Positions 9,300 to 32,802 of a stretch of DNA of 32,802 bases are shown here, piece by piece. The notes under the pieces are model-generated. The model ran no database searches and had not been told where the DNA came from. It saw nothing but the letters and a program-made list of their open reading frames with translations. Each line of letters begins with the position of its first letter. The first letter of the stretch is position 1. Source of the stretch: a virus; the IMG/VR virus record IMGVR_UViG_3300012936_000079, positions 1-32,802 of that record, one strand, 5' to 3'. The position numbers and the translations under genes are program-made.

Positions 9300-10613
9300 A
9301 TGAAAAGTAATTCAAAAAATCTATATGAAATAGCATTAAAGTTATCTGCAGATCAAATCATTGTTGAGAATGCAATGAATAATCGTAGTTTAAACGGTTT
9401 GGTGGTTGAAGCTTTAGACGATAAAGATATTCAAAAACTTAGAACAGCTGTAAAACAAACCTCAGACAGCGTTGATCAGTCTATTTCGATAGCTAGTGAA
9501 TTTAATTTACCCTCCTTGGAAAATTATTTCAAACCAATAAAAAGTTCTCTAGTAAAAGCTGACCAATTTGTAACTGCGTTAGACATGAAAGATCCTGAGG
9601 GAATAGCTGATAGAATTACTGGATTCTTCGGTAAAAAAATAGATATTTCCTTAGCGCTAAGTTCTGTTATGGACATGCAAAACAAGGTGAATATTGCAAT
9701 TAATTCTGTAGCTGACTCTTTAGATTTAATTGTCACTAACCTGGAGGGAAAAGGCATCGACGAAGAAATGTCTCTTTCTGATTTAGATCAAGACAAGCAT
9801 GGTGTCGGTGCTGATCAAATAAAATCTGGAATAAGTAAAGCTTTCAAAGCCGCTAAACCAAAGGGTTTTATGGCGAAACTAGGAGGTTTGCTGAAGAAAC
9901 AGATGCCTCCAGCTTTTCCAGGGGCAGAACAAATTGGAGATTTACCGCTAGGAGAAATTTCGGACGAAATTCTAAAATTAAATCTTAAGCAATTAAAAGG
10001 CGGAGCTGCTCAAGCAGAAGATTCAGCGGATTCAGCCGAATCGGCCGAAATACCTTCGGATGCTATATCTGATATTACAACTAGCGCTTCTGCTTCTGAA
10101 GCCGAACCTAGCACAAAAGCAGAAAAAGAATCAGATCCTTCGAAGGAAATTGCCGCGGCAGCTTCAGCGGCAGCTTCAACTCCAATGACTCCGAAAGATG
10201 CAGTTTCTAAAGCATTAGATGATTGGGAATCTTCTCTTTCTGACTCTAGCAAAAAATCTTTAAAAGCGAAAAAGAGAAACCAAGCTTTGAAAGACGCAGT
10301 TTTTTCCGGAATAGATAAGGGAAAGAAAGCTGTTGAGAGAGCAGTTGCTAAAGCTGTAAAGAGTTGGAGGTCTGATCATGAGGAGACTTTAATCAAGTCT
10401 AAAAGATTTGCAAAGAAGAATTTTGATTCATTACAAAAAATGATACCTCAACTAGCGGCCCAAGTTTTATCTCAAGCTAACGAATCTAACCAGAGAAAGA
10501 TAACTCAAAAAGAAATCAAAAGAATAGTTTATAAAAATTTAGACAAGAAGTTTGAATCTCCTAACAAACTTTACGAAACTTGGCAAAAAAATGCTGGGTT
10601 ACTAAGAGACTAA
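9300..10613 (+). CDS. Uncharacterised Ala/Ser/Lys-rich probable structural or internal-head protein
   Basis: A 437-aa protein I do not recognise. Residues 1-230 are mostly helical with repeated heptad-like stretches. Residues 235-300 are a low-complexity Ala/Ser/Glu linker (ADSADSAESAE..., AAAASAAAS). The C-terminal 130 residues are highly basic and helical. Near the C-terminus, KITQKEIKRIVYKNLDKKF resembles the leader motif MKITKRQLRRIIRE found on many proteins at the right end of the window, here placed at the other end of the protein. The very strong Shine-Dalgarno suggests abundance. A role as an internal-head or scaffold component is inferred from composition, motif and expression signal. 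Confidence 0.75.
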   Translation: MKSNSKNLYEIALKLSADQIIVENAMNNRSLNGLVVEALDDKDIQKLRTAVKQTSDSVDQSISIASEFNLPSLENYFKPIKSSLVKADQFVTALDMKDPEGIADRITGFFGKKIDISLALSSVMDMQNKVNIAINSVADSLDLIVTNLEGKGIDEEMSLSDLDQDKHGVGADQIKSGISKAFKAAKPKGFMAKLGGLLKKQMPPAFPGAEQIGDLPLGEISDEILKLNLKQLKGGAAQAEDSADSAESAEIPSDAISDITTSASASEAEPSTKAEKESDPSKEIAAAASAAASTPMTPKDAVSKALDDWESSLSDSSKKSLKAKKRNQALKDAVFSGIDKGKKAVERAVAKAVKSWRSDHEETLIKSKRFAKKNFDSLQKMIPQLAAQVLSQANESNQRKITQKEIKRIVYKNLDKKFESPNKLYETWQKNAGLLRD

Positions 10614-19435: not shown

Positions 19436-19751
19436 AGATTTCAAAGTTGGAGATTACGTATTTTTGTTTTTTAATAAGACAGGATCGATATTCTCCGCTA
19501 GGATACTAGAAAAAACAATAAGGGAAACTATATCTGATGGTCCTAAAACTGATTTTGTTATTGAAGCATATCAGCAAGAAGGAGACAGAGTAATACCCAA
19601 AAAAATTAAATTTACCAACGACTGCAAGATGTTTCATTCTATTGAAGAGCTGAGAATTGCTGTTCACGAACACGTAATGACTGCAGTTAATTCTATGATT
19701 GAAGATTGCCAAAATGTTTACAGTGCAATTTCACAAAACCTGGCTGATTAA
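19422..19751 (+). CDS. Uncharacterised protein with SH3/KOW-like N-terminus
   Basis: A 109-aa protein starting at TTG inside the end of the nuclease gene, with GGAG about 8 nt upstream. DFKVGDYVFLFFNKTGSIFSARI (6-28) looks like a small SH3-like barrel of the GD-V type. The remainder has strands and a final helix (HEHVMTAVNSMIEDCQNVYSAI). Function unknown. Possibly a partner of the nuclease. Confidence 0.65.
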   Translation: METIEDFKVGDYVFLFFNKTGSIFSARILEKTIRETISDGPKTDFVIEAYQQEGDRVIPKKIKFTNDCKMFHSIEELRIAVHEHVMTAVNSMIEDCQNVYSAISQNLAD

Positions 19752-20758: not shown

Positions 20759-22351
20759 ATGCAAAAAAGAATTCTAAAATATTCAGAAGAACTTAGGAAT
20801 GATTTGCTTTCTGGGGTGAACAAGCTAGCAGAAGCTGTCAAGATAACGATGGGTCCTCGTGGCCAAAATGTTTTAATAGAACTGGACAACGGCCCTCCTA
20901 TATTAACTAAAGATGGAGTTACAGTTGCTGAAGCTGTTAATCTAACTAATAGGTTTGAAAACTTAGGAGCTCAAGTTGTAAAAGAAGCTGCTCGGCAAAC
21001 AGCAGAAGAAGCTGGAGACGGAACGACTACGTCAACTGTTTTAGCGCAAGCTATATTTCATCAAGGTAGTAAGTATCTATCTTCAGGAGGGAATATCAGG
21101 GATTTAAGAGATTCTCTAAATTTAGCCAAAGAGGAATCAATATCATTCTTGAAAGAAATTTCTTCTGAAGTTTCAGGAAAAAAAGAACTGAAGCATGTTG
21201 CCACTATCTCTGCTAACGGAGAAGAGCAATTAGGTTCTATAATTGCAGACGCTGTTTCGCAAGTTGGCCAGCATGGATATGTTTCTGTAGAAAATTCTAG
21301 AGGATACAAAACTGAATTAAACTTAGTTGACGGTTACCAGATAGATAGAGGTTTTATTTCTCCCTATTTTGTCAACAACCAAGAGAAACAGTCTGTAGAT
21401 TTCAAAAATCCATCTATACTCCTGACTAATCAAAAGATCTCTAGCCTTAAAGACATCATCTTTCTATTAGAAAGCTCAGTCAAATCGAATAAACCTCTTG
21501 TGATAATTGCCGACGACGTAACTGGAGACGCTCTTCAGGGTTTGATATTAAATAAATCTAAAGGAAATTTAGATTGTTGTGTGATTAGGCCTCCAGAGTT
21601 TGGGGTTGCTAGAGAGAATGCTCTAGAGGACTTAGCCGCTGTCTTGGGAGCAGAGGTTGTTCATACACCAATAGCTGATTGGAAAAATGCTGACATTCAA
21701 TCAAGTTTGGGAACTTGCAAAACTTTTAAATCTTACAAAGAGCAAAGCGTTTTCGTTGACTGCCCATCTCATGATGAAGTTATCAATAAGAGGTTGTTGT
21801 CTATATCTACCCGGCTAGAAGAACCAAATGTTCCTCCCGAGGAAAAGAAAGTCTTAGAAAGAAGAAAGAGAAGAATGACGAGCGGAGTTGCTGTCATTTA
21901 TGTTGGGGGTTCAACTGAGAGCGAAGTAAACGAAAGGAGAGATAGGGTCGACGATGCTGTAAACGCTACTAGGGTTGCTTTGATGGATGGAACTATTCCA
22001 GGAGGGGGCTCTTCCCTTTTGAAAGCAGCTAATTTTATTTCTAGCAATAGTAGCACGATAGGTGCTAGCATTTTATCTACAGCTCTAAAAATGCCTATAT
22101 ATCAAATAGCAAAGAACTCTGGAGATGTTCCAGAAGTCATTATAGAAAAACTCAAAAATTCAAAAGAACAAATGGGATACGATGCCAGTACCGGCAAAAT
22201 AGTCAACTTAGCTAAAAGTGGAATTATTGATCCTCTAAAAGTTTCAGTTTCTGCTTTAGAAAATGCTACAAGCGCAGCTTTAAACTTACTTTCGGTTGGA
22301 TGTGCAGCCGTTATTTCCGATCAGGAGAGAACAAATGAACAAGAAAGATAA
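20759..22351 (+). CDS. groL: Chaperonin GroEL (phage-encoded)
   Basis: A 530-aa group I chaperonin, close to the usual 540-550. ATP-site features are present and even keep E. coli numbering: KITMGPRGQNVLIE (28-41), TKDGVTVA (50-57), GDGTTTSTVL (86-95, Asp87) and VDDAVNATRVALMDGTIPGGG with Asp398. It should form a folding chamber, most likely for phage virion proteins. It lacks the GGM-repeat tail and ends in polar residues. No groES follows, so it must use the host's or a distant co-chaperonin, or work alone as reported for some phage chaperonins. It overlaps the next gene by 17 nt. Confidence 0.96.
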   Translation: MQKRILKYSEELRNDLLSGVNKLAEAVKITMGPRGQNVLIELDNGPPILTKDGVTVAEAVNLTNRFENLGAQVVKEAARQTAEEAGDGTTTSTVLAQAIFHQGSKYLSSGGNIRDLRDSLNLAKEESISFLKEISSEVSGKKELKHVATISANGEEQLGSIIADAVSQVGQHGYVSVENSRGYKTELNLVDGYQIDRGFISPYFVNNQEKQSVDFKNPSILLTNQKISSLKDIIFLLESSVKSNKPLVIIADDVTGDALQGLILNKSKGNLDCCVIRPPEFGVARENALEDLAAVLGAEVVHTPIADWKNADIQSSLGTCKTFKSYKEQSVFVDCPSHDEVINKRLLSISTRLEEPNVPPEEKKVLERRKRRMTSGVAVIYVGGSTESEVNERRDRVDDAVNATRVALMDGTIPGGGSSLLKAANFISSNSSTIGASILSTALKMPIYQIAKNSGDVPEVIIEKLKNSKEQMGYDASTGKIVNLAKSGIIDPLKVSVSALENATSAALNLLSVGCAAVISDQERTNEQER

Positions 22352-22649: not shown

Positions 22650-23417
22650 ATGTCAGAAGCATTACAAGCTTATTTTATAACCGTGGGTAGATATCCACTT
22701 CTTTCTAGAGAGGAAGAAGTTGAGCTAGCTAAAAAGATTGAATCTGGAGATAGGAGAGCTAAAGATAAAATGATTCAATCTAATCTTAGGCTAGCTATAT
22801 CTGTGGCTAAAAAGTATCAAACTAAAGGTTGCTCTTTAGAGGACTTAATCCAAGAATCTAATATGGGATTAATCAAAGCTGTCGATCGTTTTGATTGGCG
22901 TAAAGGATTCAAATTTAGTACGTATGCTTATTGGTGGATCAAACAATCAGTTCGAACTCATATCGCTAGTCAAGCTTCTGACATAAAGTTGCCAGCTCAT
23001 ACTCGTAACTTACTTTATAAGATGAACGTCATGATTAAAGAGTATGAGGATGAGTTTGACCAGAAACCTTCGTATGACGAAGTTTCAACATCTTTAGGAA
23101 TCCCAACTTCTACTTTGATGTCTATGATTAAATGCTCTTCTCAAACTAGTTTAGACTCTAGCATAAAGGATAAAGCTGGTGGGATGGGTAGAAAAATTGC
23201 AGAAGTTGTAGCTGATAACAGGAATCCTAACGTTGAAGACTTATTAGATTCTGTTAAGATTAAGGGAGTCATGAGAAAAGCTCTTTCGAGTTTGACAAGC
23301 CGAGAAGAAAACATTATCAGGCTAAGGTTTGGTATTGGCGAAAGCGAACCTGAAAATACTGATAATTTCAAAATTTCAAAGTCTGAACTAAATAAAATTC
23401 AGGAGGTTTCTAAATGA
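22650..23417 (+). CDS. Sigma-70 family RNA polymerase sigma factor lacking region 4.2
   Basis: A 255-aa sigma factor. Region 1.2 is at about 1-32 (AYFITVGRYPLLSREEEVELAKKI) and region 2 at 35-112, including NLRLAISVAKKY, the core-binding DLIQESNMGLIKAVDRFD, and the -10-reading FSTYAYWWIKQSVR. Region 3 is at 115-200 and region 4.1 at 208-231 (ALSSLTSREENIIRLRFGIG). Where region 4.2 should follow (TLEEVG...RERIRQIEAKALRKL in RpoD) there are only 24 unrelated residues, so the -35-reading helix-turn-helix is missing. It should direct host polymerase to phage promoters, probably extended -10 types. The next overlapping gene encodes a separate helix-turn-helix that may supply the missing part. Confidence 0.93.
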   Translation: MSEALQAYFITVGRYPLLSREEEVELAKKIESGDRRAKDKMIQSNLRLAISVAKKYQTKGCSLEDLIQESNMGLIKAVDRFDWRKGFKFSTYAYWWIKQSVRTHIASQASDIKLPAHTRNLLYKMNVMIKEYEDEFDQKPSYDEVSTSLGIPTSTLMSMIKCSSQTSLDSSIKDKAGGMGRKIAEVVADNRNPNVEDLLDSVKIKGVMRKALSSLTSREENIIRLRFGIGESEPENTDNFKISKSELNKIQEVSK

Positions 23418-26847: not shown

Positions 26848-27087
26848 TTGCGAAAATACATTTTTGCGCTAACATTTTTTTCTTTTGTTTTAATGGGCGC
26901 AGATCCTAAACCTACGAAGACAAAGTTTTATAATTTTGATGATTTACTTATAAACGGCGAGTATAAAAAACCTCAAGTTCTTTATACTGACGCACGCCAA
27001 AAAGTAAGATTTGACAGGCTTTTGAAGTTGAAAAAAGACTTTTTGCCAAAGTTGAAAGATACTGAAAAAGATCCATCGTTAAGGTAG
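26848..27087 (+). CDS. Small secreted protein with signal peptide
   Basis: A 79-aa protein with a Sec signal peptide (MRKYIFALTFFSFVLMGADP, cleavage near MGA). A mature part follows: KFYNFDDLLINGEYKKPQVL, then YTDARQKVRFDRLLKLKKDF and LPKL. From memory, the pattern of an E-x-x-x-P-Q-V strand followed by ARQK-RF-RLL-LK--F-P resembles short proteins of Bdellovibrio and myxobacteria, which would hint at the host, but I cannot verify this. TTG start with AGGAAGG 6 nt before. Confidence 0.68.
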   Translation: MRKYIFALTFFSFVLMGADPKPTKTKFYNFDDLLINGEYKKPQVLYTDARQKVRFDRLLKLKKDFLPKLKDTEKDPSLR

Positions 27088-27094
27088 AAGAAGT

Positions 27095-28405
27095 ATGAAA
27101 GTGACAGAAAAAGAACTAAGAGATTATATTAGCGAAACCGTCAGAGACGAACTGATAAGTAATGATGTTTTTTCTAAAAAGATATTTGAACATTCTTACG
27201 TCACCGGTGTCCTTGGTATCCCAGTTCCCCTAAACGAATCTTACCCATATTCAGAATCTTTTAGAGATCAAATTATTCAAGAACAAATTTTGTTAGAGGG
27301 TTTTTTCTCTGATTTTAAGAAGCTAGCAGGAGATATGAAAAACGCTGCTTTAGCTTTAAGGTACATTGTCGCTGACCCCGGAAGGATCAAAGACTATGTT
27401 GGCATTTTACTCAAAACGATAAAAGATCAATACCAGAAAGCCATTGATTGGATTAAGCAAGTAACTGATTCTTGCGAGCTGCTTGTTGAATTTGCAAACG
27501 CTATAGCGGATTTCGCTCAGAAAATCACTAAGTACATCACTTCTTTAGTTGAAAAAGTTAAAGCGATTGTTGAGTCTATCAAGACAAGAGTAACTGCAGC
27601 TATTAAAAAAGTTCAAGGAATGGCCGGCTGGAAGCAAGCTTTGATAGGCTCGGCGGTCACTGTCGGTATTGCTTTTGTTTGGCAAAAACTTCAAGAACAA
27701 AACGCGATACAAGATGGCTTGAAAGAAGTTGGAGCAAAAGTAAAAGAAGCCGCCCCAGTTATAGAGAAAGCTAAAAAATTCTTTTCTAATAATCCTGAAA
27801 AAGTTAAAGCTTTGAAATTTGAAGGCTTAGATGAGAGTGAATTACCAGCTTTGGCCGAAGTCATTTACGGTGACGCTGAAAGAATTGACGAATTTTTTGG
27901 TAACATTTTTGGTAAAAAGAAAAAGAAAGATGATGAAGAATCTGAAGAGAAATCTGGAGATTCTGAGAAAGGTGAAGAGGGCGACAAAGAAGAAGGCGGC
28001 ATATTAGGTCAGATAAAAGGAGTTTTGAAATCTCTTTTTGACTTAGCTAAAGAAAAGATTATGGGATGGGTTAATGAGCAGCTTGACGTAATCAAAGATT
28101 TTATGAAATCTGTGGCAATTGATGCTATAACGACAGTCGTCGGTGGCGGAGTGATGAAGCTGTTTAGCTGGATGGGTAAAGCTTTTAACGGACTCAAATT
28201 CGTCTTTGAATACTTAGGACCACCGCTAAAGAAATTTGCCGGAATGATGAAAGGCGATAAAGATCAAGATTTAGAAGGGGAAGCTCAAGAAGCTATGGCT
28301 GGAGAAGATGATCCAACAGAAAGTTTCAGAAAAGATTTACCTCTCTTGAGAACTTACATTAGGCAGAAACTAATTGTTTCTCAAAATAGTAACTTATCAT
28401 TTTAA
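27095..28405 (+). CDS. Probable head-packaged protein with leader peptide and long helical body
   Basis: A 436-aa protein. The N-terminus MKVTEKELRDYISE matches the MKITKRQ-type leader with I-S-E at 12-14. Residues 70-265 are long amphipathic helices (KDYVGILLKTIKDQYQKAI, VEKVKAIVESIKTR) with one hydrophobic helix near 184-197 (LIGSAVTVGIAFVW). Residues 275-305 are a charged tract (KKKKKDDEESEEKSGDSEKG). Residues 305-400 contain a second amphipathic/hydrophobic set (AIDAITTVVGGGVMKLFSWM). The C-terminus has LLRTYIRQKL, resembling the second leader type (LLREYIRQLL). Leader and context suggest capsid packaging. The amphipathic helices could interact with membranes after injection (inference). 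Confidence 0.75.
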   Translation: MKVTEKELRDYISETVRDELISNDVFSKKIFEHSYVTGVLGIPVPLNESYPYSESFRDQIIQEQILLEGFFSDFKKLAGDMKNAALALRYIVADPGRIKDYVGILLKTIKDQYQKAIDWIKQVTDSCELLVEFANAIADFAQKITKYITSLVEKVKAIVESIKTRVTAAIKKVQGMAGWKQALIGSAVTVGIAFVWQKLQEQNAIQDGLKEVGAKVKEAAPVIEKAKKFFSNNPEKVKALKFEGLDESELPALAEVIYGDAERIDEFFGNIFGKKKKKDDEESEEKSGDSEKGEEGDKEEGGILGQIKGVLKSLFDLAKEKIMGWVNEQLDVIKDFMKSVAIDAITTVVGGGVMKLFSWMGKAFNGLKFVFEYLGPPLKKFAGMMKGDKDQDLEGEAQEAMAGEDDPTESFRKDLPLLRTYIRQKLIVSQNSNLSF

Positions 28406-28419
28406 GTTTTAATAATTTG

Positions 28420-28439
28420 AGCTTTAGTTCTATAAAGCT
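28420..28439 (+). other. Short perfect hairpin (7 bp stem, 6 nt loop)
   Basis: AGCTTTA (28420-28426) and TAAAGCT (28433-28439) are perfect inverted repeats in the 52-nt gap before the PAP2 gene. No U-run follows, so it is not a standard intrinsic terminator. It may be a processing or mRNA-stability hairpin. Confidence 0.4.
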
Positions 28440-28457
28440 AACTGGGGAAAAGGGAAG

Positions 28458-29213
28458 ATGGAAATCTTACGTGAATACATCGCTTCAATTTTAAAATCTT
28501 CTAGCATCTTAGTACCCCCTCCCCCACCCATAGAAGAAAGATTAAAAGAATTAGATTATATCCAATCGCAAAGGATTGAACCGTTTAATGAGAAAGAACT
28601 TCAGGAAAGTTTAGACAATGATATAGGTGGGCTTTTCAACTACGTTACCGAAAAATACGAAGGTAAAAATTGCTTAGGCTATGTAAATGAGTTGAAAAAG
28701 AAGATTGAGCCTGTAATTCTTTATCACAAAATGTATTTCAATTCACCCCGGCCTAATCAATTAGCCGCTGCTTACGGTATTCCTTTTGACTACGACAAAT
28801 TAAGTTCAGCTCAAACTCCTTCATACCCCTCTGGTCACGCTGCTCAAGCTTATTATATAGCTGAAAAACTCTCTGAAATTTTTCCAAATTCTAGTGGAAA
28901 ATTTTCTCTTGTTGCTGAAATGATAGCACAATCTAGAATCGATAGAGGAGTTCATTTTCCATCTGATATAATTTCCGGAAAAATTTTAGCTGAGAAAATG
29001 TTGTTGGTTGATTTAGAGAATATTAAAGAAGCCGCTGTAGTTCGTATTGACCCAAAAGCAGATAGAATGCTGAAAGGTGTACGTTCCGCATTAGGGGAAA
29101 AAGAATTTATCGCAAGCTTACTTGCAAAGATTGATTCTCGAGATTTAAAAAGAATGCTTCGGTCAATTGCACATGACAAAAATTTAGAAATTGATGGAAT
29201 TCAATATACATAA
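28458..29213 (+). CDS. PAP2-superfamily acid phosphatase with head-targeting-like leader
   Basis: A 251-aa protein. It opens MEILREYIASILK, the LLREYI-type leader, then a Pro run (PPPPPIEE). The phosphatase domain has all three PAP2 motifs: K91...SPRPN (97-100), YPSGH (123-127, His127) and SRIDRGVHFPSD (159-170, nucleophile His166 and Asp170). It resembles soluble class A acid phosphatases and has neither a signal peptide nor clear TM helices. Leader and neighbours suggest that it is packaged in the virion and delivered into the cell. I-E-E near residue 27 is a possible protease site. The substrate could be a nucleotide or lipid phosphate and is unknown. Confidence 0.85.
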   Translation: MEILREYIASILKSSSILVPPPPPIEERLKELDYIQSQRIEPFNEKELQESLDNDIGGLFNYVTEKYEGKNCLGYVNELKKKIEPVILYHKMYFNSPRPNQLAAAYGIPFDYDKLSSAQTPSYPSGHAAQAYYIAEKLSEIFPNSSGKFSLVAEMIAQSRIDRGVHFPSDIISGKILAEKMLLVDLENIKEAAVVRIDPKADRMLKGVRSALGEKEFIASLLAKIDSRDLKRMLRSIAHDKNLEIDGIQYT

Positions 29214-29223
29214 AGAGGTTAAG

Positions 29224-29901
29224 ATGAAAATCACTAAAAGACAGATTAGAAGAATTATTCAAGAAGAATTTAGAGACATTTCAGAAAAGAAAGATCAAAA
29301 CGATGATGGCAAGAACGATTTTTCCGATGTCAAAATCGCTAGGATGAAAGCTTCTGGTATGTCCGATGATGAAATTAAAAAGAAGCATCCAGAACTATTT
29401 GAGTCAGACGTTTCTCACCCGAAAGTTTATGGTGCTCCTCAAGGAAGTAAACGCGATAAACAGCTTGATGCGACAAAAGCAGATCTCAAAAGTGGAGACC
29501 CTGAGAGAGTTGCAAGAGCTTACCGCAGGAGAGAACGTATGGAGAAAAAAGAGAGAGGTAAAAAAGGTTTCAAAAATAAGCCTAGGCATGATACAAAAAA
29601 AGAATCTTACTTGAGAGTTACAGAATCTGAACTAAGGGAATCTATTCGCACAATATTGCAAGAAAAACTTAGTAAAGCGACGAAAGCTACTCTAAAAAAG
29701 AAAGCTGAAAAGAGAGGTTTGACTCCTGGTTCTGTTTATGCCGAATTTAGGAAAGGTTTAGCAGCTTGGGCTTCTTCTGGTTCGAGAAAAGGGATGAGCC
29801 AACATCAGTGGGCTCACGCTCGAGTAAATTCAGCGACTCCTTCAAAACCGTGGGCTGTGGTTAAAAAATCAAAAGCCAAAAAGAAGAAGAAAAAGAAATG
29901 A
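29224..29901 (+). CDS. Two-leader protein: MKITKRQ leader, Ca-loop-like segment, second leader, DUF5824-like domain
   Basis: A 225-aa, very basic protein. Leader MKITKRQIRRIIQE (1-14) ends I-Q-E. DQNDDGKNDFSDVKIARMKASG (about 23-44) contains a DxNxDGxxDF loop like EF-hand or dockerin calcium loops. A basic linker follows. A second leader-like helix, RVTESELRESIRTILQE, ends L-Q-E near residue 144. The C-terminal domain GSVYAEFRKGLAAWASSGSR and MSQHQWAHARVNSA resembles what I recall as DUF5824, then a poly-Lys tail. Two leaders in one chain suggest a polyprotein cut twice by the prohead protease. Start at ATG 29224 (GAGG 6 nt before). The earlier in-frame start overlaps the phosphatase gene. 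Confidence 0.78.
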   Translation: MKITKRQIRRIIQEEFRDISEKKDQNDDGKNDFSDVKIARMKASGMSDDEIKKKHPELFESDVSHPKVYGAPQGSKRDKQLDATKADLKSGDPERVARAYRRRERMEKKERGKKGFKNKPRHDTKKESYLRVTESELRESIRTILQEKLSKATKATLKKKAEKRGLTPGSVYAEFRKGLAAWASSGSRKGMSQHQWAHARVNSATPSKPWAVVKKSKAKKKKKKK

Positions 29902-30641
29902 GAATTACCGAAAATCAACTTCGAGGCTTAATTCGAAAAAAACTTCAAGAAAAAAAGAAGGGCTTGTGGGCAAACATTCACGCGAAGAAAAAGCGCGGTG
30001 AGAAGTCTAATCCCAGAAGTAAATCGTATAAAGCTGCTAAAAAAGCTGGCGAAAAGATACATCGCGATGCTAAAAAAGAAGTTGATGAAATCTCCGAAGC
30101 CTTATTATATCATACAGAAAATGGCGTCGGAGTTGATCAAAATATATTTCGTCCTGGATCAACTGCGTTTTTTGCTTTATTTAGAGAAGCTAGACGTCAA
30201 TATTTTGAGGGTACTTATTCACCAAACTCCAGCGAGGTAGAGTTACTTCATGATCTAGATATCGGTGAGTTTGCAATGTATGAAGGTCGCTTAGTACCTT
30301 TAGATTATCCAATACTCGAAGGTAACGAAGAACATTTGTTCGAAGCTGAATACAAGGGCAAAAAAGTTGAACTCAACAAACCAAAGCGCGGTGGAGGTGG
30401 CAAAGCTTATGTTTATGTCAATTCAGGTAAGAAAACTAAAGACGGAAAAATAAGAGTTAAAAAAGTCTCTTTTGGTTCTTCTATGCCTGACGCTATGGGA
30501 GATAATCCAAAACATAAAAAGAGAAGAAAGAGTTTTGGAGACCGGCACAACTGTTCCGATAAAGATGACAAAACTAAACCAGGCTACTGGTCGTGCCGGT
30601 TAACTAAATTTTTTGGTAGAAATATTTCAGGGTGGTGGTAA
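29898..30641 (+). CDS. Leader-bearing basic protein with inserted middle domain; probable head cargo
   Basis: A 247-aa protein. Leader MRITENQLRGLIRKKLQE ends L-Q-E at 16-18. A basic segment KGLWANIHAKKKRGEKSNPR (20-39) follows. A middle domain (about 66-146) contains ALLYHTENGVGV, FRPGSTAFFALFREARR and DLDIGEFAMYEGRLVPLDYP. The C-terminus KAYVYVNSGKKTKDGKIRVK...KHKKRRKSFGDRHNCSDK...KPGYWSCRLTKFF has two Cys and several His and looks like a small metal or nucleic-acid-binding unit. From memory, the first and last parts recur together in uncultured phage proteins, so the acidic middle domain looks like an insertion. Function unknown. Overlaps the previous stop (ATGA). Confidence 0.75.
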   Translation: MRITENQLRGLIRKKLQEKKKGLWANIHAKKKRGEKSNPRSKSYKAAKKAGEKIHRDAKKEVDEISEALLYHTENGVGVDQNIFRPGSTAFFALFREARRQYFEGTYSPNSSEVELLHDLDIGEFAMYEGRLVPLDYPILEGNEEHLFEAEYKGKKVELNKPKRGGGGKAYVYVNSGKKTKDGKIRVKKVSFGSSMPDAMGDNPKHKKRRKSFGDRHNCSDKDDKTKPGYWSCRLTKFFGRNISGWW

Positions 30642-30643
30642 AA

Positions 30644-30901
30644 ATGGAATTTGAACTCTTAAGAGAATTTATTAGAGAAGCTTTATCTGAAGATGTGAGA
30701 AAACGTGGTAACCAATATTGCGCTTATGTTGACGATAAGTTAACTAAGAAAGAAAAAGAAAATAACCCTAAAAAATATAAGGGAAAGAAAGTCGGTTCTG
30801 TGCAACGGACAAAATCTGGAAAAATAAGAATGAAAGCTCGAGCTTGTTACGCCTCTAAAAAGAAAGCTAATAACGCTATGGCTGCAGCGATGATGGGATA
30901 A
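30644..30901 (+). CDS. Small leader-bearing basic protein; probable head cargo
   Basis: An 85-aa protein. Leader MEFELLREFIREALSED has two possible protease sites, I-R-E (10-12) and L-S-E (14-16). The remaining 69 residues are strongly basic with two Cys: NQYCAYVDDKLTKKEKENNP, GKKVGSVQRTKSGKIRMKAR, ACYASKKKANNAMAAAMMG. Size and charge recall T4 internal proteins and DNA-associated virion peptides. Start at ATG 30644 with GGTGG upstream. It begins two bases after the previous stop. Confidence 0.72.
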   Translation: MEFELLREFIREALSEDVRKRGNQYCAYVDDKLTKKEKENNPKKYKGKKVGSVQRTKSGKIRMKARACYASKKKANNAMAAAMMG

Positions 30902-30908
30902 TTTAGTG

Positions 30909-31814
30909 ATGAAAAATTTTCCATTTAAGCAAAGAAAAGAGGGCTCTTTACTAATCAGAGAATTTAGCAAGGACGTTGAAACTAGCGAGCTAGCTTGGCA
31001 TCGAGATAAATGCGATAGAAGCGTTTGCGTGAAAAAAGGTAAGGGGTGGATGCTGCAAATGGAAAACAAACTTCCGGTTTACCTTAGCCCTGGTCGTTCT
31101 TATTTCATACCAAAAAATACATATCACAGGCTTCTGAAGGGAAGTAGTGACCTTATTGTTGAGATATCAGAGAGGAAAACAATGAAAATCACCAAACGAC
31201 AACTCAGAAGAATCATTAGAGAATCTGTCAGCTCACAGCTGAATGAAGATTACGGCGATCCCATAGGTTCAGGCGATCCTGTATCGGAAATCTTACAGTG
31301 GGCAGAAGAAGGCGGTCGAGTCAGGGTCGCCGGCAAAAATATCTGGCCAGGTATGGGAAACAGGTCTGGCTTACACTCTTATGCAGATGAAATGATCCGA
31401 AAAAAGTGGGATAGGTCGGGTGATCGATTTACTAAGAAAGTAGAAGCGCTTCCAGCTGGAACCGAGGTTGAACTGCAGCGGTACAAGAATATAAGTCGTG
31501 ATAGAGGCAAATTCGTAACAGCTGGAACAGTGACAATTGTAAACGCTCCAACTGCAGCACCTCAAGGACCACAGCCCAGCAAAAAAGTTAGGAAGCGGAT
31601 GAACGATATTCTACAGTTCGTCTTCGGTAATTCCGAAAGAATTGTATCAGTTTCGCTTTACACTGGCAGCGATAATCCGTTTGGGAGAGGAAAGTTGTGG
31701 CTAGGTACCGACACTGACGGAGACACTTATCTTTTTCAAGACGATCCCAGCGCCACTGAGTTTGTAAGATCTGAAAAAGACGACGAAGGTTATTGGGACT
31801 ATTTGGGGTACTAG
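30909..31814 (+). CDS. Fusion: cupin-like domain + internal MKITKRQ leader + uncharacterised domain
   Basis: A 301-aa open frame made of two modules. Residues 1-90 are a small cupin-like barrel: EGSLLIREFSKDV, then AWHRDKCDRSVCVKKGKGWM and LSPGRSYFIPKNTYHRLLKG, with His and Glu residues placed as in simple cupins. At residue 92, MKITKRQLRRIIRES begins, a complete head-targeting leader with its own ATG (31182) and AGAGG 6 nt before it. A 200-residue domain of unknown kind follows (RVRVAGKNIWPGMGNRSGLH, acidic C-terminus). The second module may be made separately from 31182, or the chain cut at I-R-E. Base composition rises to about 50 percent G+C just after this join. Confidence 0.75.
   Translation: MKNFPFKQRKEGSLLIREFSKDVETSELAWHRDKCDRSVCVKKGKGWMLQMENKLPVYLSPGRSYFIPKNTYHRLLKGSSDLIVEISERKTMKITKRQLRRIIRESVSSQLNEDYGDPIGSGDPVSEILQWAEEGGRVRVAGKNIWPGMGNRSGLHSYADEMIRKKWDRSGDRFTKKVEALPAGTEVELQRYKNISRDRGKFVTAGTVTIVNAPTAAPQGPQPSKKVRKRMNDILQFVFGNSERIVSVSLYTGSDNPFGRGKLWLGTDTDGDTYLFQDDPSATEFVRSEKDDEGYWDYLGY
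31171..31184 (+). promoter_or_regulatory. Internal ribosome site and start codon within the cupin fusion
   Basis: AGAGG followed by AAAACA and ATG (31182-31184) is a good translation start located exactly at the head-targeting leader inside the larger frame. It would give a 210-aa second product. Confidence 0.5.
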
Positions 31815-31824
31815 GGTTTGACAG

Positions 31825-32415
31825 GTGAACTTACTGCGCGAATACATAAGGCAACTGCTAACTGAATCTACTATCGACCCTAAGATCATGAGAATGATCG
31901 ACAAGGCAGAGGACTATGGTTTTTTTGTAGACATCACGTCTAATAGTGTAATTGTATATGACGGCCACGACACCGATAATCCCCGCGCTAAAGTTAACTT
32001 TGAAAGAGATACATCTTTTGGCCCTTGCAGGAGTGGGGCTTATGTGACTTATGCAAAAGCGGAAGGTGGTTTTGGTCCGCTGGCTTATGATGTTGCCATT
32101 GAGGCTACAGGCGGTCTGATGTCAGATCGAACTGAAGTTTCCCACGAAGCGATGGTTGTTTGGGATTACTACACGAACAACCGACCCGATGTCAAAGTAG
32201 ACCAGCTGGACATAATGAAGGACTATGGAGAAGAACAGTTAACTCCTGATGACAAGTCCGACGATTGTGATCAAGTACCGGCGTACGACAGGTACAAGTC
32301 AGACTGGCACAAGTCAGGACTGTCAAAGAAGATAAGCAAGTCGGGTACTCCAGTCATAGATGAACTCAAAGCGCGCGGCATGCTTTACGACGATAGGGAA
32401 GACCACCTATTATGA
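31825..32415 (+). CDS. Leader-bearing uncharacterised protein; probable head cargo
   Basis: A 196-aa protein with GTG start. Leader MNLLREYIRQLLTES has L-T-E at 12-14. The body is acidic, with DYGFFVDITSNSVIVYDGHD, FGPLAYDVAIEATGGLMSDR, VSHEAMVVWDYYTNNRPDV and a Cys/Asp segment DDKSDDCDQVP. I recall similar GPL-YD-AME...GGGL-SDR...VWDYY proteins with the same leader in uncultured phages, all without assigned function. Codon use is markedly more G+C-rich than in the left part of the window. Confidence 0.75.
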   Translation: MNLLREYIRQLLTESTIDPKIMRMIDKAEDYGFFVDITSNSVIVYDGHDTDNPRAKVNFERDTSFGPCRSGAYVTYAKAEGGFGPLAYDVAIEATGGLMSDRTEVSHEAMVVWDYYTNNRPDVKVDQLDIMKDYGEEQLTPDDKSDDCDQVPAYDRYKSDWHKSGLSKKISKSGTPVIDELKARGMLYDDREDHLL

Positions 32416-32802
32416 AACTACTTCGCGAGTACATAAGAGAGTTGTTGAAAGAGAAGGGTGAGCTTGGTAAAAAAGTGTTCGCTCAATCTGCGCCTGAAGG
32501 TTCTCGTCACGCTGGGGACGAGCCAGACACTGAGCTGGAGACCAGCTTGAAGCGTGCGATTGCGAACCACCTATTCGCCGGCGGTATATCTTCAAAGGAA
32601 CTGGGAGAACTCGGGCCTTATATATTGCGATTCATGGATGACCCGGATTATAATGACGTCTTTATCAGGTATCCCGCGGGTGAAGTCTGCAGAGGAACTC
32701 GCCTTTCTCTACTAGAAGCTAAGAAGCTTATCCCGGGATTTAAAGATATGCCGCTAGAAAGTGCAACCGGACGTACACATGCGTTTCAGAAGTTTGAGGC
32801 TT
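32412..32802 (+). CDS. Leader-bearing protein, possible mono-ADP-ribosyltransferase; 3' end outside window
   Basis: The frame starts at ATG 32412 overlapping the previous stop (ATGA) and is still open at the right edge (130 codons seen). Leader MKLLREYIRELLKEK has I-R-E (8-10) and L-K-E (12-14). A helical segment with SLKRAIANHLFAGGISSKEL and GPYILRFMDDPDYNDVFIRY follows, and then PAGEVCRGTRLSLLEAKKL. A strand with an Arg-Gly pair after a D-VF-RY stretch is how the first motif (R of R-S-E) of arginine-type ADP-ribosyltransferases often looks. T4 Alt is a packaged ADP-ribosyltransferase, which makes the idea attractive. The S-x-S and ExE motifs would be beyond the window, so this is tentative. 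Confidence 0.6.
   Translation, partial: MKLLREYIRELLKEKGELGKKVFAQSAPEGSRHAGDEPDTELETSLKRAIANHLFAGGISSKELGELGPYILRFMDDPDYNDVFIRYPAGEVCRGTRLSLLEAKKLIPGFKDMPLESATGRTHAFQKFEA

Follow-up and report, generated by a model that had tools for sequence, protein, structure and literature searches.

The end of the window, by which we mean the whole 32,802-nucleotide IMG/VR fragment (32.8 kb) that was analysed, carries a cassette of genes whose otherwise unrelated products begin with the same kind of short helix. The source is a large marine virus infecting bacteria. It is very probable, in our judgement, that these leaders make up a capsid-targeting system, T4-like but expanded, with a tag common to a protein of the prohead core. 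At the level of sequence, the shared module, its [L/I]-x-E ending, the interchange of leaders, the protease, the helix of the core genes, the diversity of the cargo and the hypervariability of the cassette can all be read directly; binding to the core, cleavage, loading into the virion and injection are inferred. An earlier note on the same DNA had proposed an expanded T4-like system from the window alone. The present analysis supports that proposal within the same limits, and its strongest new support is that prohead-core genes beside the protease share the helix.

Leader genes of the window

The leader cassette spans positions 27095-32802 and contains eight leader genes, all on the + strand; the helices that the earlier note had described at these eight gene starts are all present. 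The leaders are of two types, type A (LLREYIRELLxE), which has little net charge, and type B (e.g. MKITKRQLRRIIRE, in general form MKITKRQLRRII[KR]E), which is basic and amphipathic. The first gene of this hypervariable cassette (27095..28405, 436 aa) opens with MKVTEKELRDYISE at 27095-27136, with I-S-E at residues 12-14, and continues into a helical cargo of tape-measure-like composition; towards its C-terminus lies an extra leader-like helix, LPLLRTYIRQKL (about 28337-28372), which had been overlooked. The second gene (28458..29213, 251 aa) has the leader MEILREYIASIL at 28458-28493 and a PAP2-superfamily phosphatase domain (PF01569, 5e-13); the acid phosphatase of the earlier note is thus to be assigned to the PAP2 family. 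It is without an [L/I]-x-E near the end of the helix, the motif being found only at residue 6 and then at residue 27. The third gene (29224..29901, 225 aa) starts with MKITKRQIRRIIQE at 29224-29265, matches DUF5824 in its C-terminal half (PF19141, 2.7e-6), and holds a second, internal leader-like helix, LRVTESELRESIRTILQE (29611-29664), that had also escaped notice. It is followed by a 247-aa gene (29898..30641; leader MRITENQLRGLIRKKLQE at 29898-29951), the cargo of which matches PHROGs without known function, and by an 85-aa gene (30644..30901; leader MEFELLREFIREALSE at 30644-30691).

The 210-aa leader gene at 31182..31814 (leader MKITKRQLRRIIRE at 31182-31223) begins at an internal, in-frame ATG inside the ORF 30906-31814, preceded by its own ribosome-binding-type AGAGAGG; contig L015 has a homologue that likewise bears a leader. 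The next gene (31825..32415, 196 aa; leader (V/M)NLLREYIRQLLTE at 31825-31866) belongs to a cargo family of ~20 members with a type A leader on every one. The last gene (32412..32801; leader MKLLREYIRELLKE at 32412-32453), a predicted ADP-ribosyltransferase, is truncated by the window end. As reported earlier, the Glu of [L/I]-x-E is residue 14 in 27095, 29224, 31182, 31825 and 32412. The positions 12, 16 and 18 given for the remaining genes were recovered in 30644 (12 and 16) and 29898 (18), but not in 28458. The gene at 26848, which had been included in the stretch assigned to the family, was ruled out as a leader gene; it is signal-peptide-like and 80% identical in the syntenic relative G001.

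In the window ORF 30906-31814, an upstream cupin-like stretch and a leader, or two leaders, lie in one open frame. Similar one-frame arrangements were seen in G013 (153296 and 153980), G002 (49106 and 49508), G009 (180594 and 180435) and G001 (145944 and 146436). Such frames would be fused genes or polyproteins, which the protease might separate.

G001 (188 kb), the closest relative, was reached via a protein from the middle of the window. From 6758 to 27087 every window gene has a G001 homologue in conserved order (33 syntenic genes, 34-92% identity), and the synteny ends precisely at 27095, the first leader gene. Only three of the leader genes have a homologue in G001, namely 31825 (93% identical), 32412 (92% identical to a full-length copy) and 28458 (39%, at another position of the cassette and with a leader that is merely degenerate). 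The leader cassette is hypervariable; that of G001 comprises about 15 leader genes at 144.9-156.6 kb. Just upstream of the cassette, in the conserved region, the window encodes GroEL (20759-22351) and a sigma factor (22650-23417), which are 71% and 78% identical, respectively, in G001.

Anatomy and exchange of the leaders

A T4-type capsid-targeting sequence (CTS) is a short N-terminal peptide common to unrelated proteins and closed by [L/I]-x-E, and the leaders have both properties, with 28458 as the exception for the second. The motif is found just past the helix in 95-98% of leader genes; for cargo windows the figure is 6-13%, and for other N-termini 19%. Type A leaders were gathered without any requirement for Glu14; residue 14 is Glu in 74% of them, the [L/I]-x-E ends there in 73%, and the information falls from 2.4 bits at residue 14 to 0.6 at residue 15. 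The search pattern for type B demanded Glu14, which means that its motif rate is partly built in. In a subset of 38 type B leaders whose contigs had been obtained by other routes, Glu14 was present in 97% and [L/I]-x-E at 14 in 95%. When type B has Glu at residue 15, the helix often runs on to an LLxE at residue 22.

Either type of leader can head homologous cargo. The products of L019 4545 and L121 4513 begin with MRLLREYIRVLLECGEETAMQPIMDPLFNM and MKITKSHLRRIIREAMQPLMDPLFNM, respectively (the pair was also given as MRLLREYIRVLLECGEETAMQPIMDPLFNM versus MKITKSHLRRIIRE-AMQPLMDPLFNM), and are 75% identical past the junction, which in the type B protein lies directly behind Glu14. The leader is therefore a separate module. 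The earlier note would have been refuted had the helix proved to be a normal part of a single conserved fold. This did not hold, since the helix heads hundreds of unrelated proteins, swaps type on homologous cargo and, in an AlphaFold model, forms a low-confidence helix ahead of the enzyme domain.

The synonymous codons of Gln7 and of the Leu positions vary near background entropy while the residue is fixed, from which it follows that the peptide is under selection. Some neighbouring codons behave differently: Ile8 is ATA in 93% and Arg9/Arg10 are mostly AGA, with a codon entropy well under background next to free Leu codons, at codons 8-9 in type A and 9-10 in type B across all loci. This fixation goes beyond the amino-acid need and is not explained by cargo targeting. 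It could be argued from these codons, as well as from the hypervariable cassette and the swapped leaders, that the segment is kept as DNA, as a recombination handle or a translation or regulatory element that shuffles cargo, and that the peptide is unimportant. Yet the free variation of Leu and Gln codons behind fixed residues speaks for selection on the peptide, and the core-operon homologues described below are alike in protein and not just in DNA. We give this idea hardly any credence; a purely nucleotide-level element was rejected in view of the protein-level selection, even though some codons are unusually fixed.

The type A sequence MKLLREYIRE resembles the T4 CTS, MKTYQEFIAE, and only 3 of 508 other N-termini score as high. 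The mean type A score against the T4 CTS was 19 (null -1.7 +/- 6.1), and 8 of 3001 permuted CTSs scored as high; the similarity is short and could be convergent. In the T4 CTS, residues 4 and 7 serve in targeting and residues 8 and 10 in processing (PMC9026906). The leader positions aligned to T4 residues 4, 7 and 8 are among the most conserved, with an exception at T4 residue 10, where type A has Glu10 in 55%. Judging from the aligned residues, Glu14 seems to have taken over from Glu10 in type A. Since Glu10 of type A and Glu14 of type B fall on the same position in the T4 alignment, the shared residue 14 is partly coincidence, and the single position "exactly at 14" of the earlier note mixes two non-homologous positions.

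Abundance of the leaders and diversity of the cargo

DNA-pattern scans of viral contigs (1.46 Mb) returned at least 547 unique leader starts, and the matches sit nearly always on a start codon. With the leader profile, 24-40 type B copies per genome were counted in five large genomes, while T4, RM378, XacN1, S-SSM4 and phiKZ gave zero matches, and immuto and Mel-JY01 weak ones only. The exact type B pattern had at least 120 matches in IMG/VR, whereas 257 Gb of bacterial and archaeal genomes yielded 8 stretches, spread over five contigs, so that chance does not account for the repeats. The five contigs, which include one of 306 kb with a leader-gene array and one of 101,404 bases, appear to be of phage origin and to have ended up in MAGs through binning. 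A tblastn search of INPHARED with 21-22 aa leaders and one core protein produced no match; hence, no cultured phage emerged that combines a clear leader with published virion proteomics. Likewise, we found no virion proteomics on these uncultured phages, and a literature search met the leader sequences in none of the papers it covered.

After removal of the leader, about 531 leader ORFs fell into ~280-288 cargo groups. These counts are rough, as one group has 69 members, probably chained through low-complexity sequence, and the contigs are partly redundant. With ~288 groups and with leader swaps on homologous cargo, the claim that the helices precede completely different domains holds. Many of the leader proteins are small (median 122 aa). 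Domains recognized in the cargo are a RelA/SpoT-type HD domain (2e-16), an RNase_T/DnaQ exonuclease and an SLT lysozyme, in addition to the PAP2 phosphatase, an AAA_33 kinase, a zeta-type kinase and an RNA 2'-phosphotransferase-like protein.

The family of the gene at 32412 is predicted to be an ADP-ribosyltransferase on the basis of an AlphaFold model built on an 8-sequence alignment (pLDDT 75, pTM 0.72). Nearly all top VIA structure matches of the model were ADP-ribosyltransferases, the best with a middling Z of 6.8-6.9; Foldseek alone gave no significant match of the model to the PDB. An Arg-Gly (R94-G95) is invariant in the family; the other two motifs, Ser and E-x-E, were assigned by eye only. 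The modelled fold is in this way joined to an active-site motif of the R-S-E type; the truncated window copy reaches neither the Ser nor the Glu motif. The leader is modelled with low confidence, as a helix of residues 4-14 that stands clear of the domain. Alt, which T4 packages, is also an ADP-ribosyltransferase.

Leader helices and the protease in the head operon

No head genes, a Peptidase_S77 included, were found in the 32.8-kb window. The earlier note had called for a gp21-like protease elsewhere in the genome, and one was found in G001 (Peptidase_S77, the T4 gp21 type, E 3.7e-26) and in every one of the 19 tested leader contigs that measure 102 kb or more, versus 2 of 8 large control contigs (Fisher p about 1e-4). 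A T4-type CTS also calls for such a protease in the phage, and this is met via G001 and the large leader contigs, not via the window. The eight controls, selected for carrying GroEL, measure about 99 kb or more, and none of them (0/8) has the leader; in a PHROG search the protease matched "head maturation protease" (E 1e-48). The association partly reflects the common ancestry of one phage group.

In 20 genomes the head block runs from the protease, often followed by a decoration-like gene, through coreA (the first core protein next to the protease), coreB, one to three further genes and the scaffold to the gp23-type major capsid protein (MCP). Wherever the MCP was identified (20 of 20 head operons), a small gene between the protease and the MCP opens with the leader helix in the same register; the coreA N-terminus MAKISRNALKGLVKECLVEILAE|G, for example, aligns without gaps with the type B leader MKITKRQLRRIIKEEKARLLKE. 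Single-sequence HMMs of core proteins matched the leader only weakly (E 4e-5 to 5), and we therefore used a fixed-register profile test. The coreA proteins scored a mean of +13 bits, compared with a mean of -46 and a maximum of -12.6 for 534 other N-termini, the top one of which itself looks to be the coreA homologue of L211. The coreA set was selected partly by motif; its genomic position is identical in every operon. PHROG searches with coreA and scaffold found no family. The gp23-like MCP has an L-[RK]-E near its N-terminus in 23 of 23 copies, where T4 gp23 reads FLTE|A.

A basic, amphipathic type B helix might instead be a DNA-, nucleoid- or membrane-binding element of many early proteins with no role in the head, and the first 24 residues of 29224 do match DEK_C weakly (2e-4, below the cut-off). 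We consider this very unlikely, because type A, with its low charge, substitutes for type B on the same cargo and because the helix is common to genes within the protease-scaffold-MCP block. The DEK_C DNA-binding domain itself was rejected, the match in 29224 being partial and the only one (0/73 other leader proteins).

An uncut tag would account equally well for the sharing with core proteins. Here the leader would target proteins to the core without being cut, [L/I]-x-E would be a helix cap, and the tagged proteins would act as structural or scaffold helpers and not as injected effectors; 28458, which is without the motif, and the many small proteins with no enzyme matches are in keeping with this. 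Nevertheless, we regard it as unlikely, given the sharp drop of conservation past Glu14, the near-universal occurrence of the motif in leader genes, its recurrence in the MCPs and core proteins of S77-encoding phages, and the catalytic domains in the cargo.

In the preferred reading, that of a capsid-targeting system, the N-terminal amphipathic helix would draw the tagged protein into the assembling prohead core late in infection, by a contact of the same kind as phage core proteins may make via their near-identical N-terminal helix. That core-operon proteins open with the leader helix is only an indirect sign of affinity for the scaffolding core, and there are no binding data. The gp21-type (S77) protease would then cut behind [L/I]-x-E, at Glu14 in LLREYIRELLxE and at Glu14 and/or Glu22 in MKITKRQLRRIIKEE...LLxE, and free the cargo inside the head, where it would be packed alongside the DNA and later ejected into the next host. 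The enzymes and small proteins that the cassette encodes would serve in early takeover or in defence. Counterpoints to this reading are that some leader-like helices are internal or C-terminal and that 28458 is without the motif, its G001 homologue having a merely degenerate leader.

The T4 proteins IPI, IPII, IPIII and Alt are alike in that a short N-terminal CTS ending in [L/I]-x-E heads unrelated, hypervariable cargo, an ADP-ribosyltransferase included, in a phage group with S77 protease, scaffold and gp23-type capsid. In T4, however, about four proteins are tagged, compared with 24-40 type B tagged genes in each of the five leader genomes, and the leader system has two interchangeable types, a possible second site at residue 22 and a tag shared with a core-operon protein, which was not seen for T4 gp67/gp68; packaging has not been demonstrated in the leader phages. 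Two interchangeable leaders on dozens of genes would extend the system known from T4, an extension inferred from sequence alone. The giant phages phiKZ, SPN3US and 201phi2-1 pack many inner-body or ejection proteins into the head, and a prohead protease removes their N-terminal propeptides by cuts behind Glu (PMC5694885, PMC9026906), but these propeptides are mostly long and have no common short helix, and phiKZ had no leader-profile match. The first 30 residues of DarB of phage P1 suffice to send a reporter into the capsid (PMC9024508); this N-terminal packaging signal is part of the Dar system and not a leader on many genes.

We also lean, with some reserve, towards a general delivery code, in which dozens of proteins are injected per virion, the leader derives from the N-terminus of a core protein and each particle has two interchangeable addresses. 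If this is true, ADP-ribosyltransferases, RelA/SpoT-type hydrolases, nucleases and cell-wall enzymes would be injected, and the sequence of an uncultured phage could tell which proteins it injects. T4 has a handful of packaged internal proteins, and the injected sets of other large phages are mostly undetermined without virion proteomics. A leader on dozens of genes per genome could draw attention to proteins of host takeover and counter-defence that have not yet been studied, and leaders, as short tags, could be used to load phage heads with proteins of choice; a tag common to a core protein suggests an origin of capsid-targeting sequences.

Three further features were observed. A C-terminal W-x-x-x-N-A-G-L-L-x-D or similar (TWQKNAGLLRD, RWRKNAGLLND), possibly another head-targeting signal, ends window gene 9300 (10570-10613), its G001 homologue and a P-loop protein right after the MCP (L006, about 19600-19647); it resembles RWAxLAGI at the scaffold end and NWAxLAF at the coreA end (L006, L192-L210). 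In the head operons of L197, L200, L204 and L205, a basic ORF of 72-75 aa before the scaffold resembles phage-encoded ribosomal protein bS21, and Microcystis phage Mel-JY01 has an RpsU annotation at a comparable position. Finally, the gp23-like major capsid gene is present as two tandem copies in L192, L202 and L210.
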